Source: Streptomyces netropsis (lineage in GTDB: Bacteria; Actinomycetota; Actinomycetes; Streptomycetales; Streptomycetaceae). From it: a stretch of DNA of 64,000 bases. The stretch is from the NCBI RefSeq assembly GCF_014203545.1, contig NZ_JACHJG010000004.1, forward strand, positions 1-64,000, read 5' to 3'. The first letter of the stretch is position 1. Each line of letters starts with the position of its first letter. Both the position numbers and the translations under genes were made by a program. Shown here piece after piece: positions 28,466 through 46,800 of this stretch. The notes beneath the pieces were generated by a model, which worked only from the letters and a program-made list of their open reading frames with translations, was not told the origin of the DNA and searched no databases.

Positions 28466-28490
28466 GGGGCCTTGCCTTCCGCGTTCCCGG

Positions 28491-28512: not shown

Positions 28513-28523
28513 GACTGGCGAGG

Positions 28524-28552
28524 AGGCTAAGATATTGTTCAACAATCCTCAA
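28524..28552 (-). promoter_or_regulatory. DUF969-DUF979-pcp promoter with GntR operator between -35 and -10
   Basis: On the minus strand TTGAGG (28552-28547) and TAGCCT (28529-28524) are separated by exactly 17 bases, a vegetative-type promoter. Inside the spacer is ATTGTT-C-AACAAT (28534-28546), a palindrome with perfect arms and the shape of FCD/FadR-type GntR operators. Binding there would block polymerase directly. The site is about 100 bases before the divergent gntR start, so autoregulation is also likely. Confidence 0.75.
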
Positions 28553-28648
28553 GAGCCTTGACTGACGAATCGCTTGACCCACGAATCGCTTGACTTCCGC
28601 ATCCGTATCGCCCTTGATCGCTCCTGACTGCCGCACCGTGGAGGACGC

Positions 28649-31585: not shown

Positions 31586-31607
31586 CGGCGGGCACGGCGG
31601 CGCGCGT

Positions 31608-32762
31608 TCAGGCCGCGCTCCCCTCCACGGCCGGCCGGGGCCGGGCGCACCGGCGGGCGAGCACGTCGTCGTAGTGGCCCAGGAGGCGGTCGCCGATCAC
31701 CGTCCAGGTGCGGCCCAGGACGGACTCGCGGCCGGCCCGCCCGTATGCGGCGCGCCGGCCGCGGCAGGGTTCGAGGGCGAGTACGGCGTCGCGGACCGCC
31801 TCGGCGTCGTAGGGCCGCACGAGCAGACCGGTGCGGCCGTGGTCGATGAGGTCGAGGGGGCCGCCGACCGCCGGTGCGATCACCGGTACGCCGCTGGCCT
31901 GCGCCTCCTGCACGGTCTGGCAGAAGGTCTCCTGCGGGCCGGTGTGGACGAAGACGTCCAGCGAGGCGAAGATCCGGGCGAGGCCCTGCCCGGTGCGGCT
32001 GCCGAGGAAGCGTGCCCCGGGCAGGGCGGCGCGCAGCCCGGCGGCGCTGGGGCCGTCGCCGACGACGACGAGGCGCACACCCGGCAGCGCGCAGACGGGG
32101 GCGAGCAGCTCGACGCGTTTCTCCGGGGCGAGCCGGCCCACGTAGCCGACGATCAGCTCACCGCCGGGGGCGAGCGCGCGGCGCAGCTCCGGATCGCGCA
32201 GCGCGGGGTGGAAGCGGGTGGAGTCGACGCCGCGCGGCCACAGCCGCACCCGGGGGACGCCGTGCGCGACCAGGTCACGGGCGGCCGCGGCGGACGGCGC
32301 GAGGGTGCGGTCGGCGGCGGAGTGCACCGCCCGTATCCGCCGCCAGGCGAGGTTCGTGCCGGTGCCCAGATAGGTGCGGGCGTAGCCGCCGAGGTCGGTC
32401 TGGTAGACGGCGACGGCGGGCACGCCGAGGCGCGCGGCGGCGCTCATGCCGCGCGCGCCGAGCACGAAAGGGCTCGCGAGATGGACGACGTCGGGCCGGT
32501 GCGCGGCCAGCACCCCGGTCAGCCGTCGGCTCGGCAGCGCGACGCGGATCTGCGGATAGCCGGGCAGCGGCATCGAGGGCACCCGCACGACGGGGTACCG
32601 CCCGGCGTCGTCCTCGCCGCCGCCCGGATCGTAGGGGCCGGACGGGGTGACGACGAGCGGTTCGTGGCCGCGCCGGACCAGGTGCCGGGCGGTCTGCTCG
32701 GCGCAGTGGGCGACGCCGTTGACGTCGGGCGGGAAGGACTCGGTGACAATGACGATGCGCAT
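31608..32762 (-). CDS. GT4-family glycosyltransferase (probable mannosyltransferase)
   Basis: The 384-residue protein has a GT-B fold: N-terminal motif RIVIVTESFPPDVNGVA and a C-terminal domain with VGYVGRLAPEKRVELL and the E-X7-E region near ETFCQTVQEAQASGVPVIAP. The N-terminal sequence resembles GDP-mannose-dependent alpha-mannosyltransferases of actinobacteria (MgtA/PimB-like), but the acceptor cannot be read from sequence. There is no signal peptide, so it acts on the cytoplasmic face. It stands alone on its strand. Confidence 0.88.
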   Translation of the reverse strand: MRIVIVTESFPPDVNGVAHCAEQTARHLVRRGHEPLVVTPSGPYDPGGGEDDAGRYPVVRVPSMPLPGYPQIRVALPSRRLTGVLAAHRPDVVHLASPFVLGARGMSAAARLGVPAVAVYQTDLGGYARTYLGTGTNLAWRRIRAVHSAADRTLAPSAAAARDLVAHGVPRVRLWPRGVDSTRFHPALRDPELRRALAPGGELIVGYVGRLAPEKRVELLAPVCALPGVRLVVVGDGPSAAGLRAALPGARFLGSRTGQGLARIFASLDVFVHTGPQETFCQTVQEAQASGVPVIAPAVGGPLDLIDHGRTGLLVRPYDAEAVRDAVLALEPCRGRRAAYGRAGRESVLGRTWTVIGDRLLGHYDDVLARRCARPRPAVEGSAA

Positions 32763-32862
32763 AGGGGAGTTGTCGGCACCCCGCGCGCCGCGCGGACCAC
32801 GTGGATCTTTCCGCCCGGGGAACGTCCCGTGAGCGTTGGCCGCGCGGGCCGTTCAGCCGGGT

Positions 32863-33033
32863 TCAGTCCGAGCCGCGGACGATGTGCGGCTCGCTGTCGT
32901 CCTCGTCGCGGACGGCGTTGCCCGGGGCTTCCGTCAGCTCCGTCCGGCCGGGTAACGGTCCCGGCGTCCGGTCCGGGCGGCTGGTCCGAGGCCGGCCCGC
33001 GCTCTGCTCCTGCTGTCCCTCGCGACGCTCCAT
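32863..33033 (-). CDS. Small proline/charge-rich hypothetical protein (56 aa)
   Basis: The reading frame has good Streptomyces codon bias and an AGGGGG site before the ATG at 33033. The product is hydrophilic and probably disordered, with a basic Arg, Pro and Thr-rich first half and an acidic end (VRDEDDSEPHIVRG). No domain is recognised. It lies in an otherwise empty 460-base gap between the glycosyltransferase and the SPW gene, which supports it modestly. Confidence 0.5.
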   Translation of the reverse strand: MERREGQQEQSAGRPRTSRPDRTPGPLPGRTELTEAPGNAVRDEDDSEPHIVRGSD

Positions 33034-33226
33034 GGGCGATTTCCCCCTCTTCATCCCCCTGGGATCCGCCGGTCTCCCGACGGCCTCTTCTTGCGGCTCC
33101 CCCGTTCCCTCGCTCCCAAACAGGCGTCAGGGGGTGGTGTTGTCTACGCCATCAGGGTGGAAATTGGGGCAATTGAGGTTAAAATACAGCCAGGTCGCAC
33201 TTGAGTAGAGAAGGAAGGTGGCCGAC

Positions 33227-33658
33227 GTGAGCGCTCCTACGTCGCCCCGTATCGACCAGCACCCGGACCTCCTGGCGCTCCGCGCCCACTCGGAGGAAAC
33301 CACCGCGACACCCACCGCACAGGGCGTCGAAGCCCTCGCCTTTATGTGTGGCGTCTATCTGGCCGCCTCACCATGGATTGTCGGATTCAATGGCTCAACG
33401 ACCCTGGCCATCACCAATCTGATCGCCGGTGCCGCCTTCGCTTGTCTGCTCGGCGGCTTCGGGTCGGCGTACGAACGTACGCACGCAATGAGCTGGGCCG
33501 CGCTGTGCATAGCCGCGTGGACGATCGTCGCGCCCTGGGTCGTGGCGGGCAGCGCCGACACCACCCGGGCCATCGTCAGCAACGTCATCGTCGGCGGCGT
33601 GGCCGTCCTGTGCTCCCTCGCCCTCGCGGGGCTGGGAATGAGCAGATCCAGGCGCTGA
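33227..33658 (+). CDS. SPW-repeat membrane protein
   Basis: The 143-residue protein has a hydrophilic N-terminus (about 35 residues) and four transmembrane helices arranged as two SPW repeats; ASPWIVGF and APWVVAG are the repeat cores. SPW proteins are small membrane proteins of unknown function in actinobacteria. The GTG at 33227 has AGAAGGAAGG eight bases upstream; a GTG three codons earlier would overlap this site. The upstream 60 bases are markedly A/T-rich, likely a promoter. Confidence 0.85.
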   Translation: MSAPTSPRIDQHPDLLALRAHSEETTATPTAQGVEALAFMCGVYLAASPWIVGFNGSTTLAITNLIAGAAFACLLGGFGSAYERTHAMSWAALCIAAWTIVAPWVVAGSADTTRAIVSNVIVGGVAVLCSLALAGLGMSRSRR

Positions 33659-33703
33659 CCACCGGAGGACACACCGAACCCACCCACACCGCACCGGCCT
33701 GAC

Positions 33704-33740
33704 GGCGGGAGGCGGCCGCCAAGACGGCCCGCCTCCCGCC
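33704..33740. terminator. Terminator hairpin after the SPW gene
   Basis: A GGCGGGAGGCGG arm pairs with CCCGCCTCCCGCC downstream, leaving a short loop. It lies 45 bases past the SPW stop and 30 bases before the stop of the convergent small gene, so it can serve both. Confidence 0.75.
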
Positions 33741-33771
33741 GCCGCGTCCGCGACCGGGCGCGGGACGCGCC

Positions 33772-33942
33772 TCAGCCGGTCCCGGCCGCCTGGCCGGGTT
33801 CGACCGCGTCGAGGGGACGGTCGGCGAGGGTGTCGACGGGCCAGTCGGCCGGCCGCTCCGGCGGCATCCCGCGCAGGCGCTCGCGAAGGCGTCTGTCCAT
33901 GTCGTGACGGATCCGCTGGATGACTTCGTCCAAGTCGGGCAT
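33772..33942 (-). CDS. Small hydrophilic protein (56 aa) divergent from the ThDP-enzyme operon
   Basis: The product starts MPDLDEVIQRIRHDMDRRLR, a clearly amphipathic basic helix, then a Pro and Trp-containing tail. Codon bias fits a real gene and it occupies a gap with no alternative. A ribosome site is weak. No family is recognised. It is divergent from the 34109 operon and could share its control region. Confidence 0.5.
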   Translation of the reverse strand: MPDLDEVIQRIRHDMDRRLRERLRGMPPERPADWPVDTLADRPLDAVEPGQAAGTG

Positions 33943-34108
33943 ACCGGCGACCGTAGGACCCGCAGACCGGTCGGACCGGACGGAAAAGCAGGTTTTCACT
34001 CCTGCGGATGAATACTGAGCTGATCTTCGGCTGTCGTGGCTTTGCCGGGCGGGAAGTGGCAATGCTCCCCTCTCCCAACCGGCCCACCGACCCCAAGAGG
34101 TGCGAGGC

Positions 34109-35761
34109 ATGACGACCGTACGCGCAGCCACACTTGAGCTGTTGCGGTCCCGTGGAGTGACGACGGTGTTCGGCAACCCGGGCTCCACGGAACTCCCCTT
34201 CCTCCAGGACTTCCCCGACGACTTCCGGTACGTGCTCGGCCTCCAGGAAGCCGTCGTCGTCGGAATGGCCGACGGGTACGCGCAGGCCACCGGCGGGACC
34301 GCCCTGGTCAATCTGCACACGGCCCCCGGCGTCGGCAACGCCATGGGCGCCATCATCACCGCCGCCGCCAACCACACCCCCATGGTGGTGACCGCCGGAC
34401 AGCAGGTCCGCGCCATGATGACCATGGAGGCGCTGCTGACCAACGTGGACGCCACCGTCCTGCCCCGCCCGGCCGTGAAGTGGGCGTACGAACCACCGCG
34501 CGCGCAGGACGTGCCCGCGGCCCTGGCCCGGGCCTTCCACCTGGCCGAGACCGCCCCGCGCGGGCCGGTGTTCCTGTCGCTGCCGATGGACGACTTCGAC
34601 GTCGAGCTGGACGAGGCGGAGTACGCGGCGGCGACGGCCGCGGCACGCCGCCGGGTCCACGACGGCACCGCGGCCGCCGCGCCCGCCGTGGAAGCCCTCG
34701 CCCGACGGCTGGCGGAGGCAGCCAACCCCGTGCTGGTGACCGGTGGCGCGGTGGACGCCGAAGGCGCCTGGGAGGCGGCCGTCGCGCTCGCCGAGCACCG
34801 GCAGCTGCCCGTGTGGGCCTCGCCCATCGAGGGCCGGGTCGGCTTCCCCGAGGACCATCCCCTCTATCAGGGCGTCCTGCCGCCGGCCCTCGCGCCGCTG
34901 GCGCAGACCCTGGCCGGACACGATCTAGTGCTGGTGGTGGGGGCGCCCGTCTTCCGCTACTACCCCTACGTGCCCGGTCCGGTGCTGCCGGACGGGGCCG
35001 AGCTGGTGCTGCTCACCAGCGACCCCGACGAGGCGGCGCGCGCACCCGTCGGCGACGCCCTCGTCGCGGGGCTGCGGCCCACCCTGGAACTGCTGACGGA
35101 GGTGCTGGAGAAGAAGGGCGGCACCGACGGCCCGGCCGCGGGAGCGACGACGGCGTCCGCGGCGGCGGAGACCGCACCCACGGCGGAGGGTGCGCCCGCC
35201 GCCGACGCGGCCACCGAGCCGATGTCCGCGGTGGACGCGCTCGCGGCCGTCGCGAGCGCCGCCCCGCCCGAGACCGTGTGGGTCAACGAATCGCCCTCCA
35301 ACATCCAGGCCTTCCGCGACCATGTGCGCATCGACCGGCCGGGGTCCTTCCTGATGACCACCGGCGGCGGCCTGGGCTTCGGTCTCGCGGCCGCGGTGGG
35401 CGCCCGGCTCGGCCGGCCGGACCGGCCGGTGGTGGCGCTCGTCGGCGACGGTTCCGCCCAGTACGCGATCACCGCGCTGTGGACGGCGGCCGCCTACCGC
35501 GTCCCGGTCACCTTCGTGATCCCGGCGAACCGGGAGTACGCGATCCTCAAGTGGTTCGGCCGCTTCGAGAACACCCCCGGCGTGCCCGGCCTGGACATCC
35601 CCGGCATCGACCTGTGCGCCCTGGCCCGGGGCTACGGGGTCCCCGCGCACCGCGCCACGGACGCGGCGCACCTCGCCGAGCTGGTCGCGGCCGCCACCAC
35701 CTCCCCGGACGGACCGGTGCTCATCGTGGCCCCCATCACCACCGTTCCCCCCACGCTGTGA
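34109..35761 (+). CDS. Benzoylformate-decarboxylase-like ThDP-dependent enzyme
   Basis: The 550-residue protein aligns in my memory with Pseudomonas putida benzoylformate decarboxylase (MdlC) over its whole length. Ser26 in FGNPGSTELPF, Glu47 in GLQEAVVVGMADGYAQ and His70 in NLHTAPGVGN fall at the same numbers as the MdlC catalytic residues. The ThDP motif GDGS...PANREY lies near residues 450-478. The second catalytic histidine (MdlC His281 in FRYHQY) is replaced by Tyr285 in FRYYPY, and a low-complexity Ala and Thr-rich insert follows at about 340-370. It should decarboxylate or carboligate a 2-oxoacid. First gene of a six-gene operon; the ATG at 34109 is favoured over a GTG three codons upstream. 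Confidence 0.85.
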   Translation: MTTVRAATLELLRSRGVTTVFGNPGSTELPFLQDFPDDFRYVLGLQEAVVVGMADGYAQATGGTALVNLHTAPGVGNAMGAIITAAANHTPMVVTAGQQVRAMMTMEALLTNVDATVLPRPAVKWAYEPPRAQDVPAALARAFHLAETAPRGPVFLSLPMDDFDVELDEAEYAAATAAARRRVHDGTAAAAPAVEALARRLAEAANPVLVTGGAVDAEGAWEAAVALAEHRQLPVWASPIEGRVGFPEDHPLYQGVLPPALAPLAQTLAGHDLVLVVGAPVFRYYPYVPGPVLPDGAELVLLTSDPDEAARAPVGDALVAGLRPTLELLTEVLEKKGGTDGPAAGATTASAAAETAPTAEGAPAADAATEPMSAVDALAAVASAAPPETVWVNESPSNIQAFRDHVRIDRPGSFLMTTGGGLGFGLAAAVGARLGRPDRPVVALVGDGSAQYAITALWTAAAYRVPVTFVIPANREYAILKWFGRFENTPGVPGLDIPGIDLCALARGYGVPAHRATDAAHLAELVAAATTSPDGPVLIVAPITTVPPTL

Positions 35762-35825
35762 CCGCGCTCCACCTCGTCTTCTTCACACCGCCTCGTAAGC
35801 GGCCCCCCACCGCATGGAGTTGCCG

Positions 35826-37229
35826 ATGACCGTGACCGTCGAGAATCCCCTCCTCACCGCCCTGAGCGAAACCCTGCCCCCCGGATCCGTACTGACCGGC
35901 GAGGCCGAACTCGACCTGCACACCAGGGATTCCGCGCCGTTCAGCGAGGCGGGCAGACCCGCCGCCGTGGTGTGCCCCGACACCGTCGAGCAGGTCCAGC
36001 ACGTGATCCGCACGGCCCGGGCCTACGGGGTGCCCGTCGTGCCGCAGGGCGCCCGTACGGGCCTCGCCGGGGCCGCCAACGCCGTCGACGGCTGTGTGGT
36101 GCTGTCCATGGTCCGGATGAACCGCGTCCTGGAGATCGACACCGCGAACCGGCTGGTGCGCTGCGAGCCCGGGGTGGTCACCGCCGACCTCGCCGCGGCC
36201 GTCGCCGAGCGGGGCCTGTGCTACCCGCCGGACCCGGCGTCCTGGGAGACCTGCACGATCGGCGGGAACATCGCCACCGGGGCCGGCGGCCTGTGCTGTG
36301 TGAAGTACGGGGTCACCGCCGACTACGTCCTCGGGCTGACCGTCGTGCTCGCCGACGGCGAGGTGCTGCGCGTCGGCCGGCGCACCGTCAAGGGCGTCGC
36401 CGGATACGACCTCACCCGGCTGTTCGTCGGCTCCGAGGGCACCCTGGGCGTCATCGTCGAGGCGACGCTGGCGCTGCGCCCGCCGCAGCCGCCCGCCGTG
36501 GCGCTCCTGGCCCAGTTCCCGTCCGCCTCGGACGCGGGCGACGCGGTGGCCGCGATCATCCGGGAGGGGCACATCCCCTCCGCGCTGGAGCTGATGGACC
36601 GCACCACCACCGAGGCGGTCGCCGCGCTCGGCCATCCGCTGCTGGCCGGACACGCCGCGGCCACGCTGATCGTGGCGAGCGACGCGCCCGACGCCGCCGA
36701 GCAGGTGCGGGCGATGGCCGCGCTCTGCCGGTCGGCGAAGGCGCTGTCCGTCAGCGCCGCCGCCGACGAGCGGGAGTCCAAGGAGGTGCTGGAGGCGCGC
36801 CGGATGGTGCTGCCGGCGCTCGGCGCCCGGGCCGCGGCGCTCTCGGGTGACGTGACGGCGTTCATCGAGGACGTCGCGGTGCCGCGTGCCGCGCTGGCCA
36901 CGCTCATCGACCGGATCGAGCTGATCGCGGACGAGTACGACCTCTACATCTCCACCGTCGGGCACGCGGGGGACGGCAATCTGCACCCGACCGTCATCTT
37001 CGACCGCTCCGACCCGGACGCGGTCCGGCGCGCGAAGGAGGCGTACGACGCCATCATGGCCGCCGGGCTGGAGCTGGGCGGCACCATCACCGGCGAGCAC
37101 GGCGTCGGCGTCCTCAAGCGCGACTGGCTGGCCCGTGAACTGCCGCCCCGCAACCTGCGGTTGCAGCGGGACGTCAAACGGCTGCTCGACCCCGAGGGGC
37201 TGCTCAACCCGGGGAAGGTGCTGGCATGA
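35826..37229 (+). CDS. GlcD-type FAD-linked 2-hydroxyacid oxidase/dehydrogenase
   Basis: The 467-residue protein has an N-terminal FAD-binding (PCMH-type) domain with VVPQGARTGLAGAAN and GGNIATGAGGLCCVKYG, and a C-terminal FAD-oxidase domain ending in GEHGVGVLKRDWL and DPEGLLNPGKVL. Relatives oxidise glycolate, D-lactate or other 2-hydroxyacids to 2-oxoacids. Its product type is the substrate type of the preceding ThDP decarboxylase, 64 bases upstream. Its stop overlaps the P450 start as ATGA. GGAG precedes the ATG at 35826; another ATG four codons upstream is less likely. Confidence 0.9.
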   Translation: MTVTVENPLLTALSETLPPGSVLTGEAELDLHTRDSAPFSEAGRPAAVVCPDTVEQVQHVIRTARAYGVPVVPQGARTGLAGAANAVDGCVVLSMVRMNRVLEIDTANRLVRCEPGVVTADLAAAVAERGLCYPPDPASWETCTIGGNIATGAGGLCCVKYGVTADYVLGLTVVLADGEVLRVGRRTVKGVAGYDLTRLFVGSEGTLGVIVEATLALRPPQPPAVALLAQFPSASDAGDAVAAIIREGHIPSALELMDRTTTEAVAALGHPLLAGHAAATLIVASDAPDAAEQVRAMAALCRSAKALSVSAAADERESKEVLEARRMVLPALGARAAALSGDVTAFIEDVAVPRAALATLIDRIELIADEYDLYISTVGHAGDGNLHPTVIFDRSDPDAVRRAKEAYDAIMAAGLELGGTITGEHGVGVLKRDWLARELPPRNLRLQRDVKRLLDPEGLLNPGKVLA

Positions 37230-38635
37230 GCGACACGATCGACGCCCCGGGGCTCGGTGACCGGCGCGCCGTGCTGCCGACCGCGTCCCGCAGCGAGAAC
37301 CTCCGGCTCGCCTTCGTCTATTTCCTTCCCAATTACGTCAAGGGTGTCTTCCGTTCCCGCCCCCGCATCGCCGCGCTCGTCGCCCGGACCGACCCCGCCC
37401 GGCGCGGCCTGGAGCTGATGCGCCGGATGCGCCGCCGGCACGGCCGCGGCCCGGTCCTGGTGCGCGGCACCTCCGGGCCCACCCTGCTCGTCCTGGACGC
37501 CGAGGACGCCAAACAGGTGCTGGCCGGACCCGTCGAGGTGTACGCGGTGGACACCTGGGAGAAAGTGAGCGGCTTCGCGGCCGTGCAGCCCGAGGCACTG
37601 GTCGCCTCGCACGGCGGGCAGCGCGCGGCGCGGCGGGCGTTCAACGACGCGGTGCTGGACGCGGGCTGTCCCGTGCACCGGCTCGCCGACCGCTTCCTGC
37701 GGGTCGTGGGCGAGGAGGCGGCGGCCCTGCTGGGGCCCCAGGCGATGGAGGGCCTGCGGCCGGACGTCATCCGCGAGCGCTTCGAACGCGCGGGGCGGCG
37801 CTGCTTCCTGGGCGAGGCGGCCGCCGACGACGTGGAGTTCTCCCGGCTGCTCGACCTGCTGCTGGCCGAGGCCAACTGGATGGGCGCGCGGCGCTGGCGC
37901 ACCGGCCGCACCCGCCGGATCCGACGGCGACTGATGCAGCGTCAGGCCCGCTATCTGGGCGACGCCGACCCGCACAGCCTCGTCGGGCTGTTCGGCAGCG
38001 CGCCCCGGGGGCCGGAGACCGCTCCCGAGGGGCAGGTCGCCCACTGGTTCATGGCGCTGGGCGTGGTGCACGCGGCGGCCCTCCAGGCCCTGTCCCTGCT
38101 CGCCTCGCACCCCGTCCAGTACGAACGGGCGCTCGCGGAGACGGAGTCGGCCGACCGGGCGCACGGGCCGCGCACGGCGGCGGGGTTCCAGGCCATGCCG
38201 TACGTGCGCGCCTGTGTCCAGGACGCGGCGCGGCTGTGGCCGCCGGTGTCCAGTCTGATGCGGCGCACCACGGCCGAGACCCGCTGGCGCGACGCGGTGG
38301 CGCCGGGGGGCGTCAATGTGCTGGTGCCCGCCGGGTTCCACGCGCGGGACGGCGAGCGGATCGACTACGCGCACCGGTTCGCGCCGGAGAAGTGGCTGGA
38401 CGGCACGGCGGAGCGGGACTGGGCCGTCAGCCCCTTCAGCCGGGGCGAGGCCCAGTGCAGCGGCATGGAGCTGGGCCTCCAGCTGGCCACCGGGTTCGTC
38501 GCCGAGTTCCTGCGCGCCGGGGAGCTGGCCGTGGCCGGCCCGCGGCTGCGCCCGGACCGGCCGCTGCCGCACACCTTCGACGCGGCCCGGCTGCGCCTCG
38601 GGGTCCGTTCCCGTCGGCCGGCGGAGGGCGTATGA
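37226..38635 (+). CDS. Cytochrome P450 with non-canonical motifs
   Basis: The 469-residue protein has P450 features but atypical ones. The haem loop reads SPFSRGEAQCSGMEL with Cys411 as axial ligand (usual form FGxGxHxC). The K-helix position has DAAR (Asp333, Arg336) where ExxR is nearly universal, and the I-helix region HWFMALGVVHAAALQAL lacks the usual acidic-Thr oxygen-activating pair. Loss of that pair is typical of P450s that use hydroperoxides, such as CYP74 or the P450 domains of fungal Ppo enzymes, rather than O2 and reductase. It lies between a 2-hydroxyacid oxidase and an alpha/beta hydrolase with overlaps at both ends, and two genes from an alpha-dioxygenase-like protein. Confidence 0.8.
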   Translation: MSDTIDAPGLGDRRAVLPTASRSENLRLAFVYFLPNYVKGVFRSRPRIAALVARTDPARRGLELMRRMRRRHGRGPVLVRGTSGPTLLVLDAEDAKQVLAGPVEVYAVDTWEKVSGFAAVQPEALVASHGGQRAARRAFNDAVLDAGCPVHRLADRFLRVVGEEAAALLGPQAMEGLRPDVIRERFERAGRRCFLGEAAADDVEFSRLLDLLLAEANWMGARRWRTGRTRRIRRRLMQRQARYLGDADPHSLVGLFGSAPRGPETAPEGQVAHWFMALGVVHAAALQALSLLASHPVQYERALAETESADRAHGPRTAAGFQAMPYVRACVQDAARLWPPVSSLMRRTTAETRWRDAVAPGGVNVLVPAGFHARDGERIDYAHRFAPEKWLDGTAERDWAVSPFSRGEAQCSGMELGLQLATGFVAEFLRAGELAVAGPRLRPDRPLPHTFDAARLRLGVRSRRPAEGV

Positions 38636-40050
38636 CGACCGACAGCGAAGCGCACGCCGGGACGCGGGGCGCCCCGGACGACGGGGCCCCTTCCGAGGGC
38701 TGCCCCGAGGGTATGGACACCGCCTCGCTCGCGGCCGTCGCCCGCATGCTGGGCGAGGTGGCCGGGGTGATCCGTGAGGCGGGCCGTACGGTCACCGCGA
38801 TCGCCACCGACCCGCAGTTGGCGGCCTCGCTCGGCCGCTCGCCGCGCACCGGGGTGCGGGCGGTGCGGGCCCTGGCCCGCACCCTCACCGAACCGGCCGG
38901 TCTGGGCTACGCCCCGGACGGCGGGCGGGTGGGCCGGGCCGCCTGGCTGGGCGGGGTGCTCACCAGCCGGGAGAATCTCGCGGTCGCGGTGGCGGTCACC
39001 TCGCTCAAGCTGCGGATCCGGCTGTGCGCGGTGCGCCATCCGGAGTTCGTCGAGGACGGCCCGGTACGGCGGCTGCTGGGGGCCATCGAGGCCGACCGGC
39101 AGACCCAGGCGCTGCGGATCTTCCACCGGACGGCGCGCGCGGACGGCGCCGAGCGGGCGCTGGCCGCGCTCGCCCCGTCGCTCACCGAGGTCATGGCGTG
39201 GAACGCGCTGGTGGACGAGAACCCGTTCAACGACGCGGCCGCCTGGTGCATCGTCACCGGCTCGCGGGCCGAGGGTGATCCGCTGCTGGGCACGGGCATC
39301 GGCGCCTGGGCCCGCTGGGACCGGGGCGCGGGCCGGGCCGTGGTCGAGCCGCCGGACCCGGAGCTGCTCGCCGCCCTGGACGACGGCGGCGGCATCAGCG
39401 CGCACCTGCGGAACCTGACCGCGATCGGCAACGACGGCCGGATGATCATCCAGCGGGTCACGGGCCCGGACGGCGTCACCCGCTATCTGGGGCTGCTGGC
39501 CGGCATGGCCTTCGGTCTGCCCCGCAACGCCACCCCGCAGGACCTGGTGGGCGCGGTCACCGCGGTGGGCCGCAACGACTCGCCGTACACCCGGGCCGTC
39601 CGCAAGGCCCTCGCCCAGATCGTGCCCGAGGGGGCGTCGATCGCGTTGATCGGGCACAGCCAGGGCGGCATCGCGGCCATGAACCTGACGGAGATCCCCG
39701 AGGTCAACGAGAAGTGGCGGCTGACGCACGTCGTCGCCGTCGGCTCGCCCATCGACTTCAAACGCCCCCTCGACCCCGCGACCCGGGTCGTCAGCCTCGT
39801 CAACGAGCACGATGTGGTGCCCAATCTGGAGGGCCGCAGTCCGGTGTCGGTGTTCCCGGTGCCCGCGGACTGGCTGGAGATCACCTGGGTGGACCCGGCG
39901 CACGACTTCCCGCAGTGCCACAACGTGGGCGTCTACGCGCAGAGTCTCGACGAGGTCGTCCCCGAGGCGCGCGACCGGGTGGACGCCCTGCTCGCCCCGT
40001 ACCGGGGGACCGTCGAGGAGACCGTCGTCCTCCGCCTCCACGACCGCTGA
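38632..40050 (+). CDS. Alpha/beta hydrolase (lipase/esterase-like)
   Basis: The 472-residue protein has a helical N-terminal region (to about residue 220) and a C-terminal alpha/beta-hydrolase domain with nucleophile elbow ALIGHSQGGIAAMNL. A later VSLVNEHDVVPNLEG segment offers the acid, and the His may lie in AHDFPQCHNVG. There is no signal peptide. Translation is coupled to the P450 (ATGA overlap). A lipase or acyl hydrolase that supplies free fatty acid to the operon's oxygenases is an attractive but unproven role. The N-terminal region is of unknown function. Confidence 0.75.
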   Translation: MTTDSEAHAGTRGAPDDGAPSEGCPEGMDTASLAAVARMLGEVAGVIREAGRTVTAIATDPQLAASLGRSPRTGVRAVRALARTLTEPAGLGYAPDGGRVGRAAWLGGVLTSRENLAVAVAVTSLKLRIRLCAVRHPEFVEDGPVRRLLGAIEADRQTQALRIFHRTARADGAERALAALAPSLTEVMAWNALVDENPFNDAAAWCIVTGSRAEGDPLLGTGIGAWARWDRGAGRAVVEPPDPELLAALDDGGGISAHLRNLTAIGNDGRMIIQRVTGPDGVTRYLGLLAGMAFGLPRNATPQDLVGAVTAVGRNDSPYTRAVRKALAQIVPEGASIALIGHSQGGIAAMNLTEIPEVNEKWRLTHVVAVGSPIDFKRPLDPATRVVSLVNEHDVVPNLEGRSPVSVFPVPADWLEITWVDPAHDFPQCHNVGVYAQSLDEVVPEARDRVDALLAPYRGTVEETVVLRLHDR

Positions 40051-40116
40051 CCCCCGCCCGCACCCGTCCGGCACCCCTCACGTACGCCGGCATCCCGAGC
40101 CCTGGAGAGATGTTTG

Positions 40117-41904
40117 ATGCCCCCGGTACCGCGGCCCCGTCGCGAGTGGCACTCGCTGCCCTTCCCGCTGGCGCTGCTGGAGATCAGGAAGCAGCGGGAG
40201 CTGCTGCGCGCGCGCAATCTGCACGACACCTTCGGCGCCGGCGGCGAGCGCCCGCGCACGCCGACGCCCGAGCTGCTGCCGTACCGCAGCTACGACGGCT
40301 CGGGCTACGACCCGGACGACGTCGACATGGGCAAGGTGGGCACCCGCTTCGACCGCAACTGCCCGCTGCCGGAGACCTTCCCGGACCCCGAGGACGACGG
40401 TCTGTTCGCCCCCAGCCCGCGTGAGGTCAGCAGGCGGCTGCTGGCGCGCCGCGCGGGCTTCCGCCCGGCGCCCACGCTCAACATGCTGGCCGCGGCCTGG
40501 ATCCAGTTCCAGAACCACGGGTGGTTCAGCCACGGCGACAACAAGACCGACGAGCCGCTGGAGGTCCCGCTCGCCGCGGACGACGACTGGCCGCGCTGCC
40601 CGATGGCGGTGCGCCGCTCGCGCCCCGACCCGGTCGCCCACACCGGCGGCGACCGGCCGCCGACGTACGAGAACACCGTCACGCACTGGTGGGACGGCTC
40701 GCAGATCTACGGGTCGAGCGAGGAGCAGTGCCGGGCCCTGCGCACCGGCGAGCGCGGCAAACTGCTCGTCGAGAACGGCCGGTTGCCCGACGAGACCAGG
40801 GAGGGTCTCTCCGGCATCGACGCCACCGGCTTCAACGACAACTACTGGGTCGGGCTGTCCCTGCTGCACACGCTCTTCGCCAAGGAGCACAACGCGATCT
40901 GCGACCGCGTCGCCGCCGCCCACCCGACCTGGGGCGACGAGCGGCTGTTCCAGACGGCGAGACTCGTCAACGCCGCCGTCATGGCGAAGATCCACACGGT
41001 GGAGTGGACCCCGGCGGTGATCGACCAGCGGGTGACCCGCGCGGCGATGCACATCAATTGGTACGGGGTGCTGCCCGCCCGGCTGCGCCGCAACGTACGG
41101 CGGTTCGGCAAGGGCGAGGCGCTCTTCGGCATCCTCGGCGGCGCGACCGACCACCACACCGCCCCGTTCTCGATGACCGAGGAGTTCGTCAGCTCCTACC
41201 GACTGCACCCGCTGATCCGCGACGAGTACGAGATCCGCTCCCACCGCACGGGCGAGCTCATCGAGCGGACGGGTTTCGAACCGCTCCAGGCGCTGGCCAC
41301 CCGGAAGGCGGTGGACTGCTGGGGCTGGTCCGACCTGCTGTACTCCTTCGGCACCATGAACCCCGGCGCCATCGCCTTGCACAACCACCCCGACTGTCTG
41401 CGGGACCTCGCCCGGATCTCCGGGGAGCACGTCGACGTCGGCACGGTGGACGTCCTGCGCGACCGCGAGCGGGGCGTCCCGCGCTACGCCGCCTTCCGCA
41501 CGGCGCTGCACCGCCCGCCGGTGACCTCCTTCGAGGACCTCACCGGCGGGAACGCCGGGCTGGCGGCCGAGCTGCGGGAGGTCTACGACGGACGGCTGGA
41601 CCGCGTCGACACGATGGTCGGCATGTACGCCGAACCCAAGCCCCGGGGTTTCGCGTTCAGCGACACCGCGTTCCGGATCTTCGTGCTGATGGCGTCCCGG
41701 CGGTTGAAGAGCGACCGCTTCTTCACCTCCGACTACCGGCCGGAGGTCTACACCGCCGAGGGCCTGGAGTGGATCGACCGCACCGGGATGTGCGACGTCC
41801 TGCTGCGCCACCACCCGGAGCTCGCCCCGGCGCTGGAGGGGGCACGGAACGCCTTCGCGCCCTGGACCGCGCTGCGGCCGAAGCCCCGGGGGGTGAACCG
41901 GTGA
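40117..41904 (+). CDS. Alpha-dioxygenase (PIOX/cyclooxygenase)-like haem peroxidase-family protein
   Basis: The 595-residue protein belongs to the animal haem peroxidase superfamily, closest by motif to plant alpha-dioxygenases. The distal segment WIQFQNHGWFSHGDN gives distal His134; the proximal segment SSYRLHPLIRDEY gives proximal His364 with Tyr361 three residues before it, the position of the radical tyrosine of cyclooxygenase and alpha-dioxygenase (YxxH). Thus dioxygenation of a fatty acid is more likely than simple peroxidase activity. Oddity: Gly135 stands where peroxidases have the calcium-binding Asp (HD). GGAGAG precedes the ATG at 40117. The stop overlaps the next gene. Confidence 0.82.
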   Translation: MPPVPRPRREWHSLPFPLALLEIRKQRELLRARNLHDTFGAGGERPRTPTPELLPYRSYDGSGYDPDDVDMGKVGTRFDRNCPLPETFPDPEDDGLFAPSPREVSRRLLARRAGFRPAPTLNMLAAAWIQFQNHGWFSHGDNKTDEPLEVPLAADDDWPRCPMAVRRSRPDPVAHTGGDRPPTYENTVTHWWDGSQIYGSSEEQCRALRTGERGKLLVENGRLPDETREGLSGIDATGFNDNYWVGLSLLHTLFAKEHNAICDRVAAAHPTWGDERLFQTARLVNAAVMAKIHTVEWTPAVIDQRVTRAAMHINWYGVLPARLRRNVRRFGKGEALFGILGGATDHHTAPFSMTEEFVSSYRLHPLIRDEYEIRSHRTGELIERTGFEPLQALATRKAVDCWGWSDLLYSFGTMNPGAIALHNHPDCLRDLARISGEHVDVGTVDVLRDRERGVPRYAAFRTALHRPPVTSFEDLTGGNAGLAAELREVYDGRLDRVDTMVGMYAEPKPRGFAFSDTAFRIFVLMASRRLKSDRFFTSDYRPEVYTAEGLEWIDRTGMCDVLLRHHPELAPALEGARNAFAPWTALRPKPRGVNR

Positions 41905-42263
41905 GCCGGGACCACCGCGAGGAACAGGGCGGAGCCGCCACGGCGAACGGCTCCGGCGGCCCCGGCGGGGCCGCCGACGGCATCTGCTTCGCCGGGATCG
42001 CGCCCTGGTCGCAGCCCGTGCACGCCCAGGCGGGCCGGCTGCGGGAGCAGGCCGCCCGGCTCCGGGAGGGCGCCGCGGCGGTGTCGCTGCCCGGCGCCGA
42101 GGGTGCCGCACTGCGGCGGCGGATCCTCGGGCACGCGGCCCGCGCCGAGTCGGCGGCACGCTCGCTGGACCGGGCGGCCGACGCCCTCTTCGCCCACGAG
42201 GCGGTGCTCACCGCGCTCGCCACGCGCCGGCGGGAGACCGGGGGTGCGACGCACATCGGATGA
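41901..42263 (+). CDS. Small helical protein coupled to the dioxygenase gene, unknown function
   Basis: The 120-residue protein starts with a GTG that overlaps the dioxygenase stop (GTGA). After a Gly-rich tail and a short motif ICFAGIAPWSQPVHAQ, residues 45-115 form a continuous Ala, Arg, Leu and Glu-rich helical region, likely a helical hairpin or coiled coil. No family is recognised. Coupling suggests a partner or scaffold of the oxygenase. It is the last gene of the operon. Confidence 0.7.
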   Translation: MSRDHREEQGGAATANGSGGPGGAADGICFAGIAPWSQPVHAQAGRLREQAARLREGAAAVSLPGAEGAALRRRILGHAARAESAARSLDRAADALFAHEAVLTALATRRRETGGATHIG

Positions 42264-42395
42264 CCGCGCCGTTTCGCCCGCGGCGGGCCGGTGGGGCTCG
42301 GGCATCGGCCCGCCGGGACGCGCCTTCCCGCCTTCGGCGGCTGACGGGATGCGGGCCATCTGCCCTGGTGCGGGTCCGGCCGGAGGCCGGGGCGC

Positions 42396-42441
42396 GCCGG
42401 GGCGGGTGAAGCGGCGGTCCCTCCGCTTCACCCGCCCCGGC
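42396..42441. terminator. Perfect 19-base terminator stem closing the six-gene operon
   Basis: GCCGGGGCGGGTGAAGCGG (42396-42414) is exactly complementary to 42423-42441 with an 8-base loop. It lies between the end of the rightward operon and the stop of the leftward gene at 42459, so it probably works in both directions. Confidence 0.88.
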
Positions 42442-42458
42442 ACCCCGCTCCTCGTCCG

Positions 42459-42854
42459 CTAGGAGCCGACGAGCGCTTCCGCGGCCGGTCGCGCCGTCCC
42501 GGTCTCCGCCGTCCCCTTCGCGTACCAGCGGTCGCCGCGCCGCTCGGCCATGCCGTACGCGGCGAGACCGTTGACGTGCTTGAGGACGGTGCGTGCCTGG
42601 TAGCCCACGGTCGCGCACAGTTCGTCGACGGACGCCCCGTCGGCGCCGGACGCCCGCAGCCCCTCCCAGGTGCGGGCCTCGTGACGGCCGAGATCCGGTG
42701 TCGCGGCGGAGACCACCGCGCGGGGCTCGGCACGCGGCTCGGCACGCGGCTCGGCCCGGGGCTCGGCGCGGGGCGGTCCCGGGCGGGACGAGCCGACCGG
42801 GCGGGGGGTGCGGTTGACCTTGCGGTGTCTACGGCCCTTCTGGCGTTTGCTCAT
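42459..42854 (-). CDS. Winged-helix-like protein with AEPR repeats
   Basis: The 131-residue protein begins with a strongly basic tail (MSKRQKGRRHRK), followed by a linker containing four AEPR repeats, and a C-terminal helix-turn-helix-like domain (GADGASVDELCATVGYQART then VLKHVNGLAAYGMAERRG) resembling MarR-type winged helices. It probably binds nucleic acid. It is divergent from the response-regulator gene and converges on the terminator of the oxygenase operon. The ribosome site is poor. Confidence 0.72.
   Translation of the reverse strand: MSKRQKGRRHRKVNRTPRPVGSSRPGPPRAEPRAEPRAEPRAEPRAVVSAATPDLGRHEARTWEGLRASGADGASVDELCATVGYQARTVLKHVNGLAAYGMAERRGDRWYAKGTAETGTARPAAEALVGS
42722..42770. repeat. 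Four 12-base tandem repeats inside the winged-helix gene
   Basis: GCTCGG cores recur exactly every 12 bases (42725, 42737, 42749, 42761), encoding AEPR four times on the minus strand. Copies differ at one or two positions, as expected for a polymorphic coding minisatellite. Confidence 0.75.
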
Positions 42855-42980
42855 GGCTGATCCACTGCTCCCGTCCTGCTGGCGGCTCCTGCTGTCTGAA
42901 GGCGTCAACTCGGCCCGGCGCCGCCCGGTTACGGTAATTCCACCAGGTGTGCGAAAAGTGACACACGGTAACATCTCGGG

Positions 42981-42993
42981 CCCCAGGTTTCCT
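42981..42993 (+). promoter_or_regulatory. CAGGTTTCCT element before the response-regulator gene
   Basis: CCCCAGGTTTCCT ends 14 bases before the regulator start. The ten bases CAGGTTTCCT recur exactly at 45281-45290 before the FtsW-like gene. This suggests autoregulation by the OmpR-type protein encoded just downstream. Confidence 0.5.
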
Positions 42994-43007
42994 GGCATAC
43001 CGGATAT

Positions 43008-43697
43008 GTGACGCTGGGGGGCGTGCGCATATTGATGGTCGAGGACGAGGTGGGGCTCGCCGACTCGCTGCGGCGGGGGCTGGGCGCCGAGGGGCACTGG
43101 GTGGACGTCGTCCACGACGGACACCGCGGGCTGGAGTCCGCGCTGTCCGGGGCGTACGACGTCATCGTGCTCGACGTGATGCTGCCCGGCCTGAGCGGCT
43201 ACGAGATCTGCGCGCGGCTGCGCAGGCTCGGCCAGTGGACACCGGTGCTGATGCTCACCGCGAAGGACGGCGAGTACGACGAGGCCGAGGGGCTCGACGC
43301 GGGGGCGGACGACTATCTGTCCAAACCGTTCTCGTTCGTCGTGCTGCTGGCCCGGCTGCGGGCCCTGGGCCGCCGCCGGGGCGCCGGGACCACCACGCTC
43401 CAGGCCGGGGACCTCGTCCTGGACATCGCCGGGCGGCTCTGCCGCCGAGGCGATCAGGAGATCGAGCTGACCGCCCGCGAGCTGTCGGTGCTGCGGTACC
43501 TGATGGCGAGCGCGGGGCAGGCGGTGGCCAAGCGGGACATCCTCGACGAGGTGTGGGACTCGCCCGCCGAGACCGACCCGAACATCGTGGAGGTCTACGT
43601 CTCCTCGCTGCGCAAGAAGATCGACGCCCCCTTCGGCCGCCACGCGATCGTGACCGTCCACGGCACGGGCTACCGGCTCGCGCCCGACGGCGGCTGA
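43008..43697 (+). CDS. OmpR/PhoB-family response regulator
   Basis: The 229-residue protein has a receiver domain (acidic pair VEDE, phospho-acceptor Asp in VIVLDVMLPGLSG, Lys in YLSKPF) and a C-terminal winged helix (TARELSVLRYLMASAGQAV to GTGYRLAP). The histidine kinase follows three bases after its stop, so they form a two-component system. The GTG at 43008 has no ribosome site and may be leaderless; a GTG at 43023 or an ATG at 43035 are alternatives. Confidence 0.92.
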   Translation: MTLGGVRILMVEDEVGLADSLRRGLGAEGHWVDVVHDGHRGLESALSGAYDVIVLDVMLPGLSGYEICARLRRLGQWTPVLMLTAKDGEYDEAEGLDAGADDYLSKPFSFVVLLARLRALGRRRGAGTTTLQAGDLVLDIAGRLCRRGDQEIELTARELSVLRYLMASAGQAVAKRDILDEVWDSPAETDPNIVEVYVSSLRKKIDAPFGRHAIVTVHGTGYRLAPDGG

Positions 43698-43700
43698 CCC

Positions 43701-45206
43701 ATGGGCCTCGCCACGTCCCGGCGGGGACGCTCGCGGCTCCTCCCCCGTACGGTCCGGGGCCGGTCCGCCGCGGCGGCGGCGCTGGCCATGGCGCTGGTCC
43801 TCGCGGCCGGCGGCGGCTGGCTGTACGTGATCCTGCGCGCCAACCTGCTGGACAACGCCAACGGCCGCACGGAACTCGCCGCCCGCGAGGTGGCGGCCCG
43901 GGCGGACGCCGGCCCGCTGCCCTCCCTGCTGCCCGCGCCCCGGTCGGGCGTCGACGTGGTCCTCGTCCTCGACCCGCGCGGCACGGTGGTCGCCACCAGC
44001 CGGCCCTCGGCCGGGCCCCTCGCCCGCGAGTTCGCGGCCCTGCGCCCGCAACCGGGGCAGGACGCCGCTTCCAAGGTCCTGTGCTGCTCCCGGGCCATGA
44101 ACGGGGAGCGCGGCGACGTCGTCGTGGTCCGGGCGACCCCGGCACCCGGCGAGGAACGCTACGTCTACGCGCTGACCGTGCTCAACGACGTGGACGACGC
44201 CACGCACGCCATCGCGCTCGGCCTGCTCGGCGGCGCCCCGCCGCTCATCGCCCTCGCCGCCGCCATCGCCTGGGCGGTGACCGGGCTGGCGCTGCGGCCG
44301 GTCACCGCGATCCGCACCGAGCTGGCCGCCGTCACCGCCAGCGAGCTGGACCGGCGGGTGCCGGACCCGGCGGGCGGGGACGAGGTGGCGGCGCTGGCCC
44401 GTACGGTCAACGCCACCCTGGACCGGCTGGAGCAGGCGGTCGCCCGGCAGCGGCAGTTCGTCGCCGACGCCTCCCACGAGCTGCGCAACCCGGTCGCCGC
44501 GGTGCGCTCGCAGCTGGAGGTCGCGCTGGCCGCGGCGGCACGGCCCGACCACCGGACAGGCCACGGGACTGCCTGCCGGACGGGCTGCCCGACGGACTGC
44601 CGGACGGACTGCCCGACGAGCGGTGCCGTGCGGGCCGCGCTGGCCGACACCGTGCGGCTGCAGCACGTCGCCGCGGACCTGCTGCTCCTCGCCCGGCTCG
44701 ACGCCCGGGTGCCGACCGGGACCGGCGAGCCGGTGGATCTGGCGCTGTTGGCCGCCGAGGAGGCCGCCCGGCGGCCGTCGACCCGCGTACCGCTGACGGT
44801 GACCGCCGTCGCGCCGGTGCCGATGCGCGGCCGGAGCGGGCAGTTGGAGCGGCTGGTGGCCAACCTCGTGGACAACGCGCTGCGCCACGCGGCCTCCCGG
44901 GTGGAGGTCAGCGCGTTCCTCGACGAGACGGCGGGGCAGGCGGTGCTGGAGGTCGCGGACGACGGGCCGGGGATCGCCGCGGACCAGCGCGAGCGGGTCT
45001 TCGAACGCTTCGTCCGGCTGGACGCCGCGCGTGACCGGGAGAGCGGCGGCAGCGGGCTCGGGCTGGCCATCGCCCGGGAGATCGCGCACGCCCACGGCGG
45101 GAGTCTGGTGGTGGCCCCGGGAGGCGGCGGGGCACGGCTGGTGGCCCGCTTCCCGCTGCCGGACGGACAGCCGGGGAAGCCGGGGACACGGCCGGGAGCC
45201 CTGTGA
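43701..45206 (+). CDS. Two-component sensor histidine kinase
   Basis: The 501-residue kinase has a first transmembrane helix (AAAAALAMALVLAAGGGWLYVIL), an extracytoplasmic loop of about 120 residues, a second helix (LLGGAPPLIALAAAIAWAVTGLAL), HAMP, a HisKA domain with phospho-His in FVADASHELRNPVAAV, and a HATPase_c domain (NLVDNALRHAA, DDGPGIA, GSGLGLAI). Between the two DHp helices lies a peculiar Cys-rich insert of about 16 residues made of four CxTx repeats (from residue 292). It is co-transcribed with the regulator. Confidence 0.92.
   Translation: MGLATSRRGRSRLLPRTVRGRSAAAAALAMALVLAAGGGWLYVILRANLLDNANGRTELAAREVAARADAGPLPSLLPAPRSGVDVVLVLDPRGTVVATSRPSAGPLAREFAALRPQPGQDAASKVLCCSRAMNGERGDVVVVRATPAPGEERYVYALTVLNDVDDATHAIALGLLGGAPPLIALAAAIAWAVTGLALRPVTAIRTELAAVTASELDRRVPDPAGGDEVAALARTVNATLDRLEQAVARQRQFVADASHELRNPVAAVRSQLEVALAAAARPDHRTGHGTACRTGCPTDCRTDCPTSGAVRAALADTVRLQHVAADLLLLARLDARVPTGTGEPVDLALLAAEEAARRPSTRVPLTVTAVAPVPMRGRSGQLERLVANLVDNALRHAASRVEVSAFLDETAGQAVLEVADDGPGIAADQRERVFERFVRLDAARDRESGGSGLGLAIAREIAHAHGGSLVVAPGGGGARLVARFPLPDGQPGKPGTRPGAL
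44573..44620. repeat. Four 12-base tandem repeats in the kinase DHp region
   Basis: Unit CTGCC(G/C)GACGG(G/A) occurs four times without gap. In frame it encodes the cysteine-bearing repeat CRTG, CPTD, CRTD, CPTS. Because the unit is a multiple of three, copy-number changes would keep the frame. Confidence 0.8.
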
Positions 45207-45253
45207 TCCGGCCGCCGCGCGGCTTCGCGTGCACACGATCCGGACAATGCCGA

Positions 45254-45297
45254 GGTTCCTGAAGGAACCTTCAGAACCCTCAGGTTTCCTTCAGGAC
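45254..45297 (+). promoter_or_regulatory. Direct-repeat operator candidate before the FtsW-like gene
   Basis: TTCCTGAAGG, CCTTCAGAAC, CCTCAGGTTT and CCTTCAGG follow in close spacing, with TCAG at 45271, 45280 and 45291. The cluster ends about 20 bases before the ATG at 45314. It shares CAGGTTTCCT with the response-regulator leader and AGAACCCTC with the leader of the glycoside hydrolase at 48351. Such head-to-tail repeats are typical of OmpR-family regulators. Confidence 0.6.
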
Positions 45298-45313
45298 GTG
45301 CCGTCCATGATTC

Positions 45314-46726: not shown

Positions 46727-46800
46727 GGCCACCGGGATCCGGGAAGGGCCCGGCAGGCGTCCGGGAGGCGTCCGGGAGGCGCACACCGCACGATGAACGC

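Follow-up and report, generated by a model that had tools for sequence, protein, structure and literature searches.

Organization of the six-gene operon

Analysis of a 64,000-nt stretch of the Streptomyces netropsis genome (RefSeq assembly GCF_014203545.1, contig NZ_JACHJG010000004.1, positions 1 to 64,000; hereafter, the window) revealed six genes lying in one direction on the plus strand between positions 34109 and 42263. The genome comprises 8.04 Mb in 43 contigs. The genes and the hairpin that follows them are as follows.

34109..35761, plus strand: thiamine diphosphate (ThDP)-dependent 2-oxoacid decarboxylase, 550 aa, benzoylformate decarboxylase (BFD) family
35826..37229, plus strand: GlcD-type flavin adenine dinucleotide (FAD)-linked 2-hydroxyacid dehydrogenase, 467 aa, FAD_binding_4 and FAD-oxidase_C domains
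37226..38635, plus strand: cytochrome P450, 469 aa, Pfam p450 match in the C-terminal part only, P450 fold in the structural model
38632..40050, plus strand: alpha/beta hydrolase-like protein, 472 aa, N-terminal half helical, GHSQGG motif with Ser343
40117..41904, plus strand: predicted haem alpha-dioxygenase (DOX), 595 aa, matching rice alpha-DOX (4kvj)
41901..42263, plus strand: small helical protein, 120 aa, GTG start, without Pfam or NCBIfam match
42396..42441, no strand assigned: perfect 19-bp inverted repeat with a loop of 8, likely terminator, between convergent genes

Neighboring genes overlap by 4 nt at three junctions (GlcD/P450, P450/hydrolase, and dioxygenase/small protein). The remaining gaps measure 64 nt between the ThDP and GlcD genes (52 nt if the alternative ATG start of the GlcD gene at 35814 is used) and 66 nt between the hydrolase and dioxygenase genes. 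An earlier sequence-only reading of the window had described this tight packing, with its three overlaps and a perfect 19-base hairpin, and the coordinates bear it out. The enzyme families named in that reading are borne out as well by matches to NF005485, FAD_binding_4/FAD-oxidase_C, P450, and An_peroxidase; the metal motifs typical of the family are retained in the GlcD-type dehydrogenase, and the alpha-DOX-like haem protein contains every alpha-DOX determinant checked.

Predicted active site of the dioxygenase

Searching the Protein Data Bank (PDB) with phmmer revealed rice alpha-DOX (4kvj) as the match to the dioxygenase (E 5.4e-111, residues 8 to 585 of 595), with peroxidases and cyclooxygenases (COX) far behind. 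The protein was also recognized by Pfam An_peroxidase (E 5e-100), and the NCBIfam scan gave no match. The catalytic, haem, carboxylate, and channel residues of rice alpha-DOX were taken as named in excerpts of PMC8720084 and mapped through the 4kvj alignment. All 10 rice residues checked are kept in the window DOX: the catalytic Tyr361, the distal His134 and proximal His364, Phe357 and Phe522 around the tyrosine, His293 and Arg529 for the carboxylate, Thr298 at the alpha-carbon, Trp297, and Arg27.

Conservation of these residues was followed in 66 rows, i.e., the window and 65 related loci (designated by L numbers), and proved almost complete for all 10. His134, His293, His364, and Arg529 are present in 66 of 66 rows and Tyr361 in 65. 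At the Tyr, His, Arg, Thr, and Phe positions, only L104 and L159 depart. In L159, serine replaces Thr298. In L104, an S. morookaense locus also listed as L037, histidine replaces the tyrosine, Phe357, Phe522, and Thr298 are changed too, and the ThDP, GlcD, and hydrolase genes are all absent beside the dioxygenase gene. This coincidence of an altered active site with missing pathway genes may be regarded as a small natural experiment in favor of a pathway link. Taken by its sequence, the haem protein is an alpha-dioxygenase, for which formation of a 2-hydroperoxide or aldehyde is predicted.

The window genome encodes a second alpha-DOX, which is 49% identical and lies in an operon with genes for 428-, 475-, 387-, and 129-aa proteins (L045:5678-11959). 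These proteins resemble those of L046 and L048, and a weak DyP-peroxidase match was obtained for the L046 protein that corresponds to the one of 475 aa. Among the 28 loci of the genus with other DOX types, 13 (L059 to L071) encode DOX proteins of about 920 to 971 aa (e.g., L059:8677-11538), whose N-terminal part was without Pfam match in the two that were scanned, L059 and L070.

Conservation and phylogeny of the gene set

The gene set was followed in 295 genomes of the same genus, with DOX relatives taken at E 1e-30 or better, and in a wide scan in which each of 84,980 species was represented by a single genome; the best 80 of the 420 DOX relatives detected there were used. Genes were called with a codon-score script in 65 of these 80 loci, so that their starts are rough, and by longest open reading frame in 15 cyanobacterial loci and in L160. 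The P450 profile model was built from 13 genus loci and favors near relatives. Some genomes of the 50 nearest loci (L093 to L142) are also among the 13 genus loci.

A DOX relative was found in 65 of the 295 genus genomes, 13 of which, the window counted, carry close orthologues (67 to 100% identity). In all 13 loci a P450 gene is adjacent or one gene off, and the ThDP and GlcD genes, like the hydrolase gene, are present in 10. The closest DOX relatives in the species-wide scan belong to Streptomyces albireticuli, S. eurocidicus, and S. cinnamoneus. Of the 50 nearest loci, 46 have a P450 of the same family at most six genes from the dioxygenase; the remaining four are L100 and L102 (both contig ends), L126, and L139. 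ThDP and GlcD genes occur together in 29 of the 50, and the set of five enzymes is complete in 27, in four layouts and five genera. The Streptomyces order is ThDP-GlcD-P450-hydrolase-DOX. Divergent layouts are found in Rhizohabitans (L118) and Sinosporangium (L124/L125), another layout in Longispora (L129), and the order DOX-ThDP-GlcD-P450-hydrolase in Nonomuraea soli (L133). The dioxygenase and P450 genes stand alone in L127, L128, and L130 (Nonomuraea and [Actinomadura] parvosata) and also in Solirubrobacter, Paraconexibacter, metagenome-assembled genomes (MAGs), and Mycobacterium ST-F2. The block that the sequence-only reading had treated as one pathway therefore recurs across genomes, and the objection that its genes might not co-occur fails. 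As a block of six it stands in part: it is conserved, but the ThDP and GlcD genes fall outside its commonest core, dioxygenase plus P450. The six genes as one fixed unit were rejected, because gene content varies among the 13 genus loci and the 50 nearest loci.

Beside cyanobacterial DOX genes (49 to 53% identity in the best segment), a P450 of the same family was found in none of 16 loci, some of which are short contigs. Nor was one found in the remaining 14 loci with gene calls that rank after the first 50, several of them again on short contigs (L160 is in both sets). Among the 28 genus loci with other DOX types, L064 alone gave a match, a weak one, to the P450 model.

In a DOX tree of 58 chosen rows, every P450-paired row falls into a single actinobacterial clade, with support of 100/98 without the long-branched Mycobacterium row and 88/48 with it. 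The ThDP-bearing rows lie in a subclade (100/99) shared with rows that lack ThDP. The tree points to a long-term linkage of dioxygenase and P450, joined by GlcD and ThDP in one large clade. Three loci show further neighbors. In L126, which belongs to the P450-paired clade and is itself without P450, the dioxygenase gene overlaps an aldehyde dehydrogenase gene. In Paraconexibacter (L140:8840-11716), an N-terminal NAD_binding_4 domain of the fatty acyl reductase type is fused to the dioxygenase, and the P450 gene follows; in L172 an acyl-CoA oxidase gene adjoins the P450 gene. These neighbors fit an aldehyde and lipid pathway.

The P450 and its helix I

The Pfam p450 match of the window P450 (E 2e-16) covers residues 288 to 431 only. 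Cys411 lies in the stretch FSRGEAQCSG, and DAAR stands in place of ExxR. The structural model (predicted local distance difference test [pLDDT] score, 84) has a P450 fold with Z scores up to 33. Foldseek placed CYP184A1 (7wzm, with oleic acid) first, and ranking by Z placed CYP51s first; the 50 matches listed span Z 30.8 to 33.0 and represent generic P450 folds. CYP74, CYP152, and CYP8A were not among the structure matches listed, which excludes nothing. The E-T pair of CYP184A1 aligns with Val280-Val281 of the window P450, in the stretch ALGVVHAA, an equivalence drawn from the alignment and not from a haem-bound structure. No redox partner for the P450 is encoded among the six operon genes.

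In the clade of the window P450 (six DOX partners and L073), the acid is absent at the helix-I position and the stretch is of the G-V type. In the other clade of Streptomyces sequences, this position reads D-A, D-L, or D-T, the last in L041 and L044. Since the other clade and the distant partners carry D-A, D-L, or D-T, the missing acid-alcohol pair is, on this alignment, a feature of the window P450 lineage and not of every partner; its absence from all DOX-paired P450s was considered and rejected, with D-T in seven distant ones and in L041 and L044. In thromboxane synthase and fungal 8S- and 9S-allene oxide synthases (AOS), a nonpolar residue lies near the haem, according to excerpts of PMC13049297. 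Given such residues in known synthases and ALGVVHAA at the corresponding place, use of hydroperoxides by the window P450 is plausible.

A P450 family exclusive to DOX loci was likewise rejected, as the family is also found without DOX. A P450 tree of 33 rows was built, with 20 of the 30 DOX-free P450 places sampled. Eight of these DOX-free P450s comprise L073, which stands alone, and seven that lie beside a degenerate hydrolase gene. In L073 (7885-9291), the flanks resemble those of the window operon and the P450 gene is the only one of the six present. The seven others (L079, L081, L083, L084, L088, L089, and L090) combine the P450 with a hydrolase largely without its catalytic half and without DOX; they have an adjacent gene with a weak beta-lactamase match (L083 and L088 members) and mostly genes that look gluconate related by eye. 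Related P450s of L077 (7845-9197) and its relatives occur in a recurrent locus with a DUF6479 protein, with a Glyco_hydro_26 match in L077.

The ThDP decarboxylase and the GlcD-type dehydrogenase

The ThDP enzyme scored 649 bits against NF005485 (benzoylformate decarboxylase; cutoff, 493), and its best PDB match was 6qsi (E 1.6e-150). Comparison with 6qsi revealed that the equivalents of the BFD residues Ser26, Glu47, and the active-site His70 are kept. The second active-site histidine, His281, is replaced by Tyr (RYYPY) and Ala460 by Ile (YAIL), and the isoleucine is found in 10 of 10 ThDP orthologues. The A460I variant of BFD accepts pyruvate, which the wild type does not, as stated in excerpts of PMC9063327. 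With isoleucine at this position, an aliphatic substrate for the ThDP enzyme is therefore plausible. The protein is a BFD family member by sequence, and its specificity for benzoylformate is doubtful. Orthologues of at least 63% identity were detected in 10 of 295 genus genomes, in each case beside DOX. The next full-length match reached 51%; two shorter, partial matches stood at 57% (about 330 aa) and 55% (about 356 aa).

The GlcD-type enzyme matched FAD_binding_4 (E 8e-45) and FAD-oxidase_C (E 4e-68) and, at 414.9 bits, stayed below the cutoff of the glycolate oxidase GlcD equivalog (567.9). The metal-site motifs GHAGDGN and GEHG are kept in 10 of 10 orthologues. Orthologues of at least 66% identity occur in the same 10 genomes as those of the ThDP enzyme, and the GlcD-type enzyme may be a recruited housekeeping copy.

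The hydrolase, the small protein, and a sister locus type

The hydrolase gave Pfam matches below threshold only (Abhydrolase_6, E 0.0013) and none in NCBIfam. Its model (pLDDT, 67) has a predicted alpha/beta hydrolase core, a best Foldseek match at E 5e-4, and poor overall confidence. Of the 50 nearest DOX loci, 35 carry a hydrolase gene within the stretch analyzed, with an intact GHSxGG motif in 30 of them. Two loci, L179 (7103-10256) and L180 (7398-10281), encode GHSxGG hydrolase homologues beside proteins of 493 and 497 aa, respectively. These proteins match the P450 model weakly (29 and 37 bits), and that of L179 is without Pfam P450 match.

The small protein remained without match in Pfam and NCBIfam scans, ESX-type families included. 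A homologue is present in 5 of the 13 genus loci, the window counted. In L083, an 81-aa protein at a similar place matched EspA_EspE and PPE below threshold.

Hydrolase relatives were found in 47 of the 295 genus genomes. Twelve places outside DOX clusters were chosen on purpose for inspection, and seven more lie within the P450 stretches. Six of the 12 (L173 to L178) encode a haem dioxygenase with a YRWHS tyrosine in every case, the one in L173 being closest to COX-2 (E 1e-61). Five of these six sister loci carry P450, desaturase-like, and ketoacyl-synthase-like genes, and three carry a PlsC-like gene; Pfam was run on members of L173 and L176. The sister locus (L173:5816-14756; also L174, L175, L176, and L178, and in part L177) further includes a hydrolase fused to an ADC-like domain and a small helical protein. 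A COX-like protein occurs in 8 of the 295 genomes, and the window genome is without one. Four of the five sister-locus P450s contain the stretch N-A-T-Q, L175 being the fifth, nonmatching one. In the epoxy alcohol synthase of fungi, N965 and Q968 lie in substrate recognition site 4 (SRS4), as given in excerpts of PMC13049297, and the likeness is one of spacing only. It is possible that the L173-type locus represents a bacterial oxylipin cluster; bacterial cyclooxygenases are termed putative sequences in excerpts of PMC4420034.

Boundaries and genomic setting

The arms of the inverted repeat (42396-42414 and 42423-42441) lie 132 nt past the last stop codon, and the folded 101-nt stretch has a z score of -4.9. 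The hairpin is without a T run and was not listed in the terminator scan. It is likely a terminator, and because of its position between convergent genes it may serve both directions. Upstream neighbors are LamB_YcsF, CT_C_D, and CT_A_B genes, which presumably form a 5-oxoprolinase-like set, a glycosyltransferase gene, and a gene for an SPW protein. Downstream lies a two-component pair. Among the scanned neighbor genes there is no mandelate racemase. The Rfam scan of positions 28000 to 47000 gave zero matches at gathering score, and hence no thiamine pyrophosphate (TPP) riboswitch was found. The sigma-70 scan revealed a single weak match, upstream of the adjoining SPW gene.

Discussion

On balance, the operon probably encodes a pathway of fatty-acid alpha-oxidation, in which all activities are predicted. 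The tyrosyl radical of the alpha-DOX would add O2 to carbon 2 of a free fatty acid, giving the (R)-2-hydroperoxide. This compound would lose CO2 spontaneously to yield the aldehyde one carbon shorter (Cn-1). Alternatively, it would be converted to the (R)-2-hydroxy or 2-oxo acid, either by the P450 acting without O2 activation or by reduction. From the (R)-2-hydroxyacid the GlcD-type flavoenzyme would form the 2-oxoacid, which the ThDP enzyme would then decarboxylate to the same aldehyde, so that all branches would converge on it. GlcD-type enzymes favor D/R acids. The product of alpha-DOX is an R hydroperoxide, as reported in excerpts of PMC9305512.

Several observations weigh against this pathway. 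Spontaneous decarboxylation of the hydroperoxide could make GlcD and ThDP unnecessary. Of the 50 nearest loci, 21 gave no ThDP gene (L113 has GlcD, and some of the 21 are contig ends); judged by these loci, dioxygenase and P450 persist without ThDP, and ThDP and GlcD lie outside the most widespread core. A GlcD match at E 1e-100 or better exists in 289 of the 295 genus genomes, those listed mostly at 57 to 63% identity. With so near a paralogue in almost every genome, a general lactate or glycolate role of the GlcD-type enzyme is a possible alternative. The pocket of a BFD-family enzyme may be closed to a long-chain 2-oxoacid. In the fatty-acid channel, Leu53, Met325, Ala331, and Ile553 of the rice enzyme are replaced by Ile23, Thr307, Ile313, and Val523 in the window DOX; in excerpts of PMC8720084, threonine at the Met325 position occurs in CalDOX and LepDOX as well. 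The hydrolase is absent from 2 of the 10 clusters with ThDP and GlcD among the first 13 loci, and its catalytic serine is lost in L035 and L036. For the P450, a close DOX orthologue is missing next to 30 of 43 places, and in the P450 tree the eight DOX-free P450s share a clade with the 13 DOX partners. The seven distant DOX-paired P450s (Solirubrobacterales, MAGs, and Mycobacterium) have D-T in helix I, and these, together with those of L041 and L044, may be ordinary monooxygenases. Furthermore, the L064 protein matching the P450 model is a 1055-aa protein with 45 bits, encoded three genes from a DOX of another type.

The hydrolase and the small protein, the latter perhaps ESX/WXG-like, might be separate from a pathway formed by DOX, P450, GlcD, and ThDP alone. 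This looser arrangement is possible, if rather unlikely. The seven DOX-free loci with P450 and degenerate hydrolase, the occurrence of the hydrolase with other partners, and the subthreshold EspA/EspE and PPE matches of one small protein argue for it. It is opposed by the frequency of the hydrolase gene and its motif in the nearest loci, by retention of the gene through the rearrangements in L118, L124, L125, L129, and L133, and by the association of the same hydrolase family with a second DOX type. Because the serine or the catalytic half is lost in several loci, the catalytic role of the hydrolase looks optional and forms the weakest part of the pathway. The sequence-only reading had the hydrolase free the fatty acid; as a needed step this is weakened by the loci in which gene or serine is missing.

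A further alternative, which we regard as unlikely, is a bacterial oxylipin synthase. Here the P450 would act as an isomerase on the 2-hydroperoxide, or on some other product of the DOX, to give a dedicated signal or defense lipid, as do the synthases of thromboxane, prostacyclin, diols, and allene oxides with products of COX/DOX. ThDP and GlcD would be a later addition that removes or reshapes side products. Dioxygenase and P450 are indeed the most widespread part of the set, the operon is without a redox partner, and ALGVVHAA occupies the acid-Thr site where thromboxane synthase and 8S- and 9S-AOS have a nonpolar haem-side residue (excerpts of PMC13049297). The hydrolase family also adjoins the COX-2-like dioxygenase with a different P450. 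Against this stand the varied helix-I signatures of DOX-paired P450s (G-V in the window lineage, D-A, D-L, or D-T in the other Streptomyces clade, D-T in the distant partners) and the residue equivalence, which comes from alignment and not from a haem-bound structure. We know of no product class that arises by isomerization of a saturated 2-hydroperoxide, which also counts against a synthase of this kind.

Two other routes are very improbable. An aromatic route from arylacetic acid through a mandelate-type acid and benzoylformate to an aryl aldehyde agrees with the BFD cutoff passed by the ThDP enzyme, but the alpha-DOX residues for the carboxylate and the alpha-carbon are retained in the dioxygenase, isoleucine replaces Ala460 in 10 of 10 ThDP orthologues, and neighbors of DOX elsewhere are lipid genes (acyl-CoA oxidase in L172 and the fatty acyl reductase-type domain in L140). 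Carboligation, in which the ThDP enzyme would join a 2-oxoacid-derived acyl anion to the DOX aldehyde to give an acyloin (alpha-hydroxyketone), gains from the facts that BFD-family enzymes can form 2-hydroxyketones and that the aldehyde acceptor would be made within the same operon, but the sequence offers nothing to tell ligation from decarboxylation.

The alpha-oxidation pathway resembles several known systems in part. The window DOX shares near-full-length homology and the same 10 residues with plant and cyanobacterial alpha-DOX (rice 4kvj/4kvk, Arabidopsis 4hhr, CalDOX, and LepDOX); its clade is paired with P450, in contrast to the cyanobacterial loci. In the fusions of DOX and P450 known from fungi (the linoleate diol, epoxy alcohol, and allene oxide synthases), as in COX with thromboxane or prostacyclin synthase, a COX-superfamily dioxygenase likewise acts together with a P450 that perhaps works without O2 activation (excerpts of PMC13049297). 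Unlike these, the window has dioxygenase and P450 as separate genes and so no Ppo/LDS-type fusion, the dioxygenase belongs to the alpha-DOX branch, and the P450 likeness is one of analogy. Pfam detected no P450 domain in three longer DOX proteins (L059, L070, and L140). The fungal Ppo comparison drawn in the sequence-only reading is thus an apt working analogy as regards the conserved pairing, whereas the dioxygenase itself is unfused and closest to plant alpha-DOX.

Mammalian peroxisomal alpha-oxidation uses a 2-hydroxylase and the ThDP-dependent lyase HACL1 on CoA esters. The window route would share with it the removal of a single carbon by way of an acid oxygenated at C2 and of a ThDP enzyme; it would differ in using free acids, O2 addition by a haem dioxygenase, and a 2-oxoacid decarboxylase. 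MdlC of the mandelate pathway matches the window ThDP enzyme over its full length and above the family cutoff, but the latter has Tyr for His281 and Ile for Ala460 and scanned neighbors without mandelate racemase.

The dioxygenase alone is not new, because cyanobacterial and plant alpha-DOX and a tree including Actinobacteria are already published (excerpts of PMC8720084). In their excerpts, PMC8720084 and PMC9305512 consider bacterial alpha-DOX as individual biocatalysts. Neither the gene set nor an alpha-DOX with a P450 partner was described in the best-matching titles and abstract openings, which lay mostly outside the subscription literature.

A broader and tentative proposal is that Actinobacteria evolved the logic of the COX cascade more than once, although we hold this to be less than probable. 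One branch would be alpha-DOX with P450, later joined by GlcD and ThDP, in which a self-sufficient P450 would convert 2-hydroperoxy fatty acids. The other would be a COX-2-like dioxygenase with an NxxQ P450 and a desaturase, and a hydrolase-like and a small helical protein would accompany both.

If the alpha-oxidation pathway proposed here is correct, the six genes would represent a bacterial route of fatty-acid alpha-oxidation arranged as a single operon and the first case found in which a P450 is the conserved partner of an alpha-dioxygenase. Whether the combination of haem dioxygenase and P450, on which prostanoid and fungal oxylipin chemistry is built, arose in bacteria too could then be tested in a laboratory Streptomyces, and the operon would supply stand-alone enzymes for aldehydes and odd-chain lipids.

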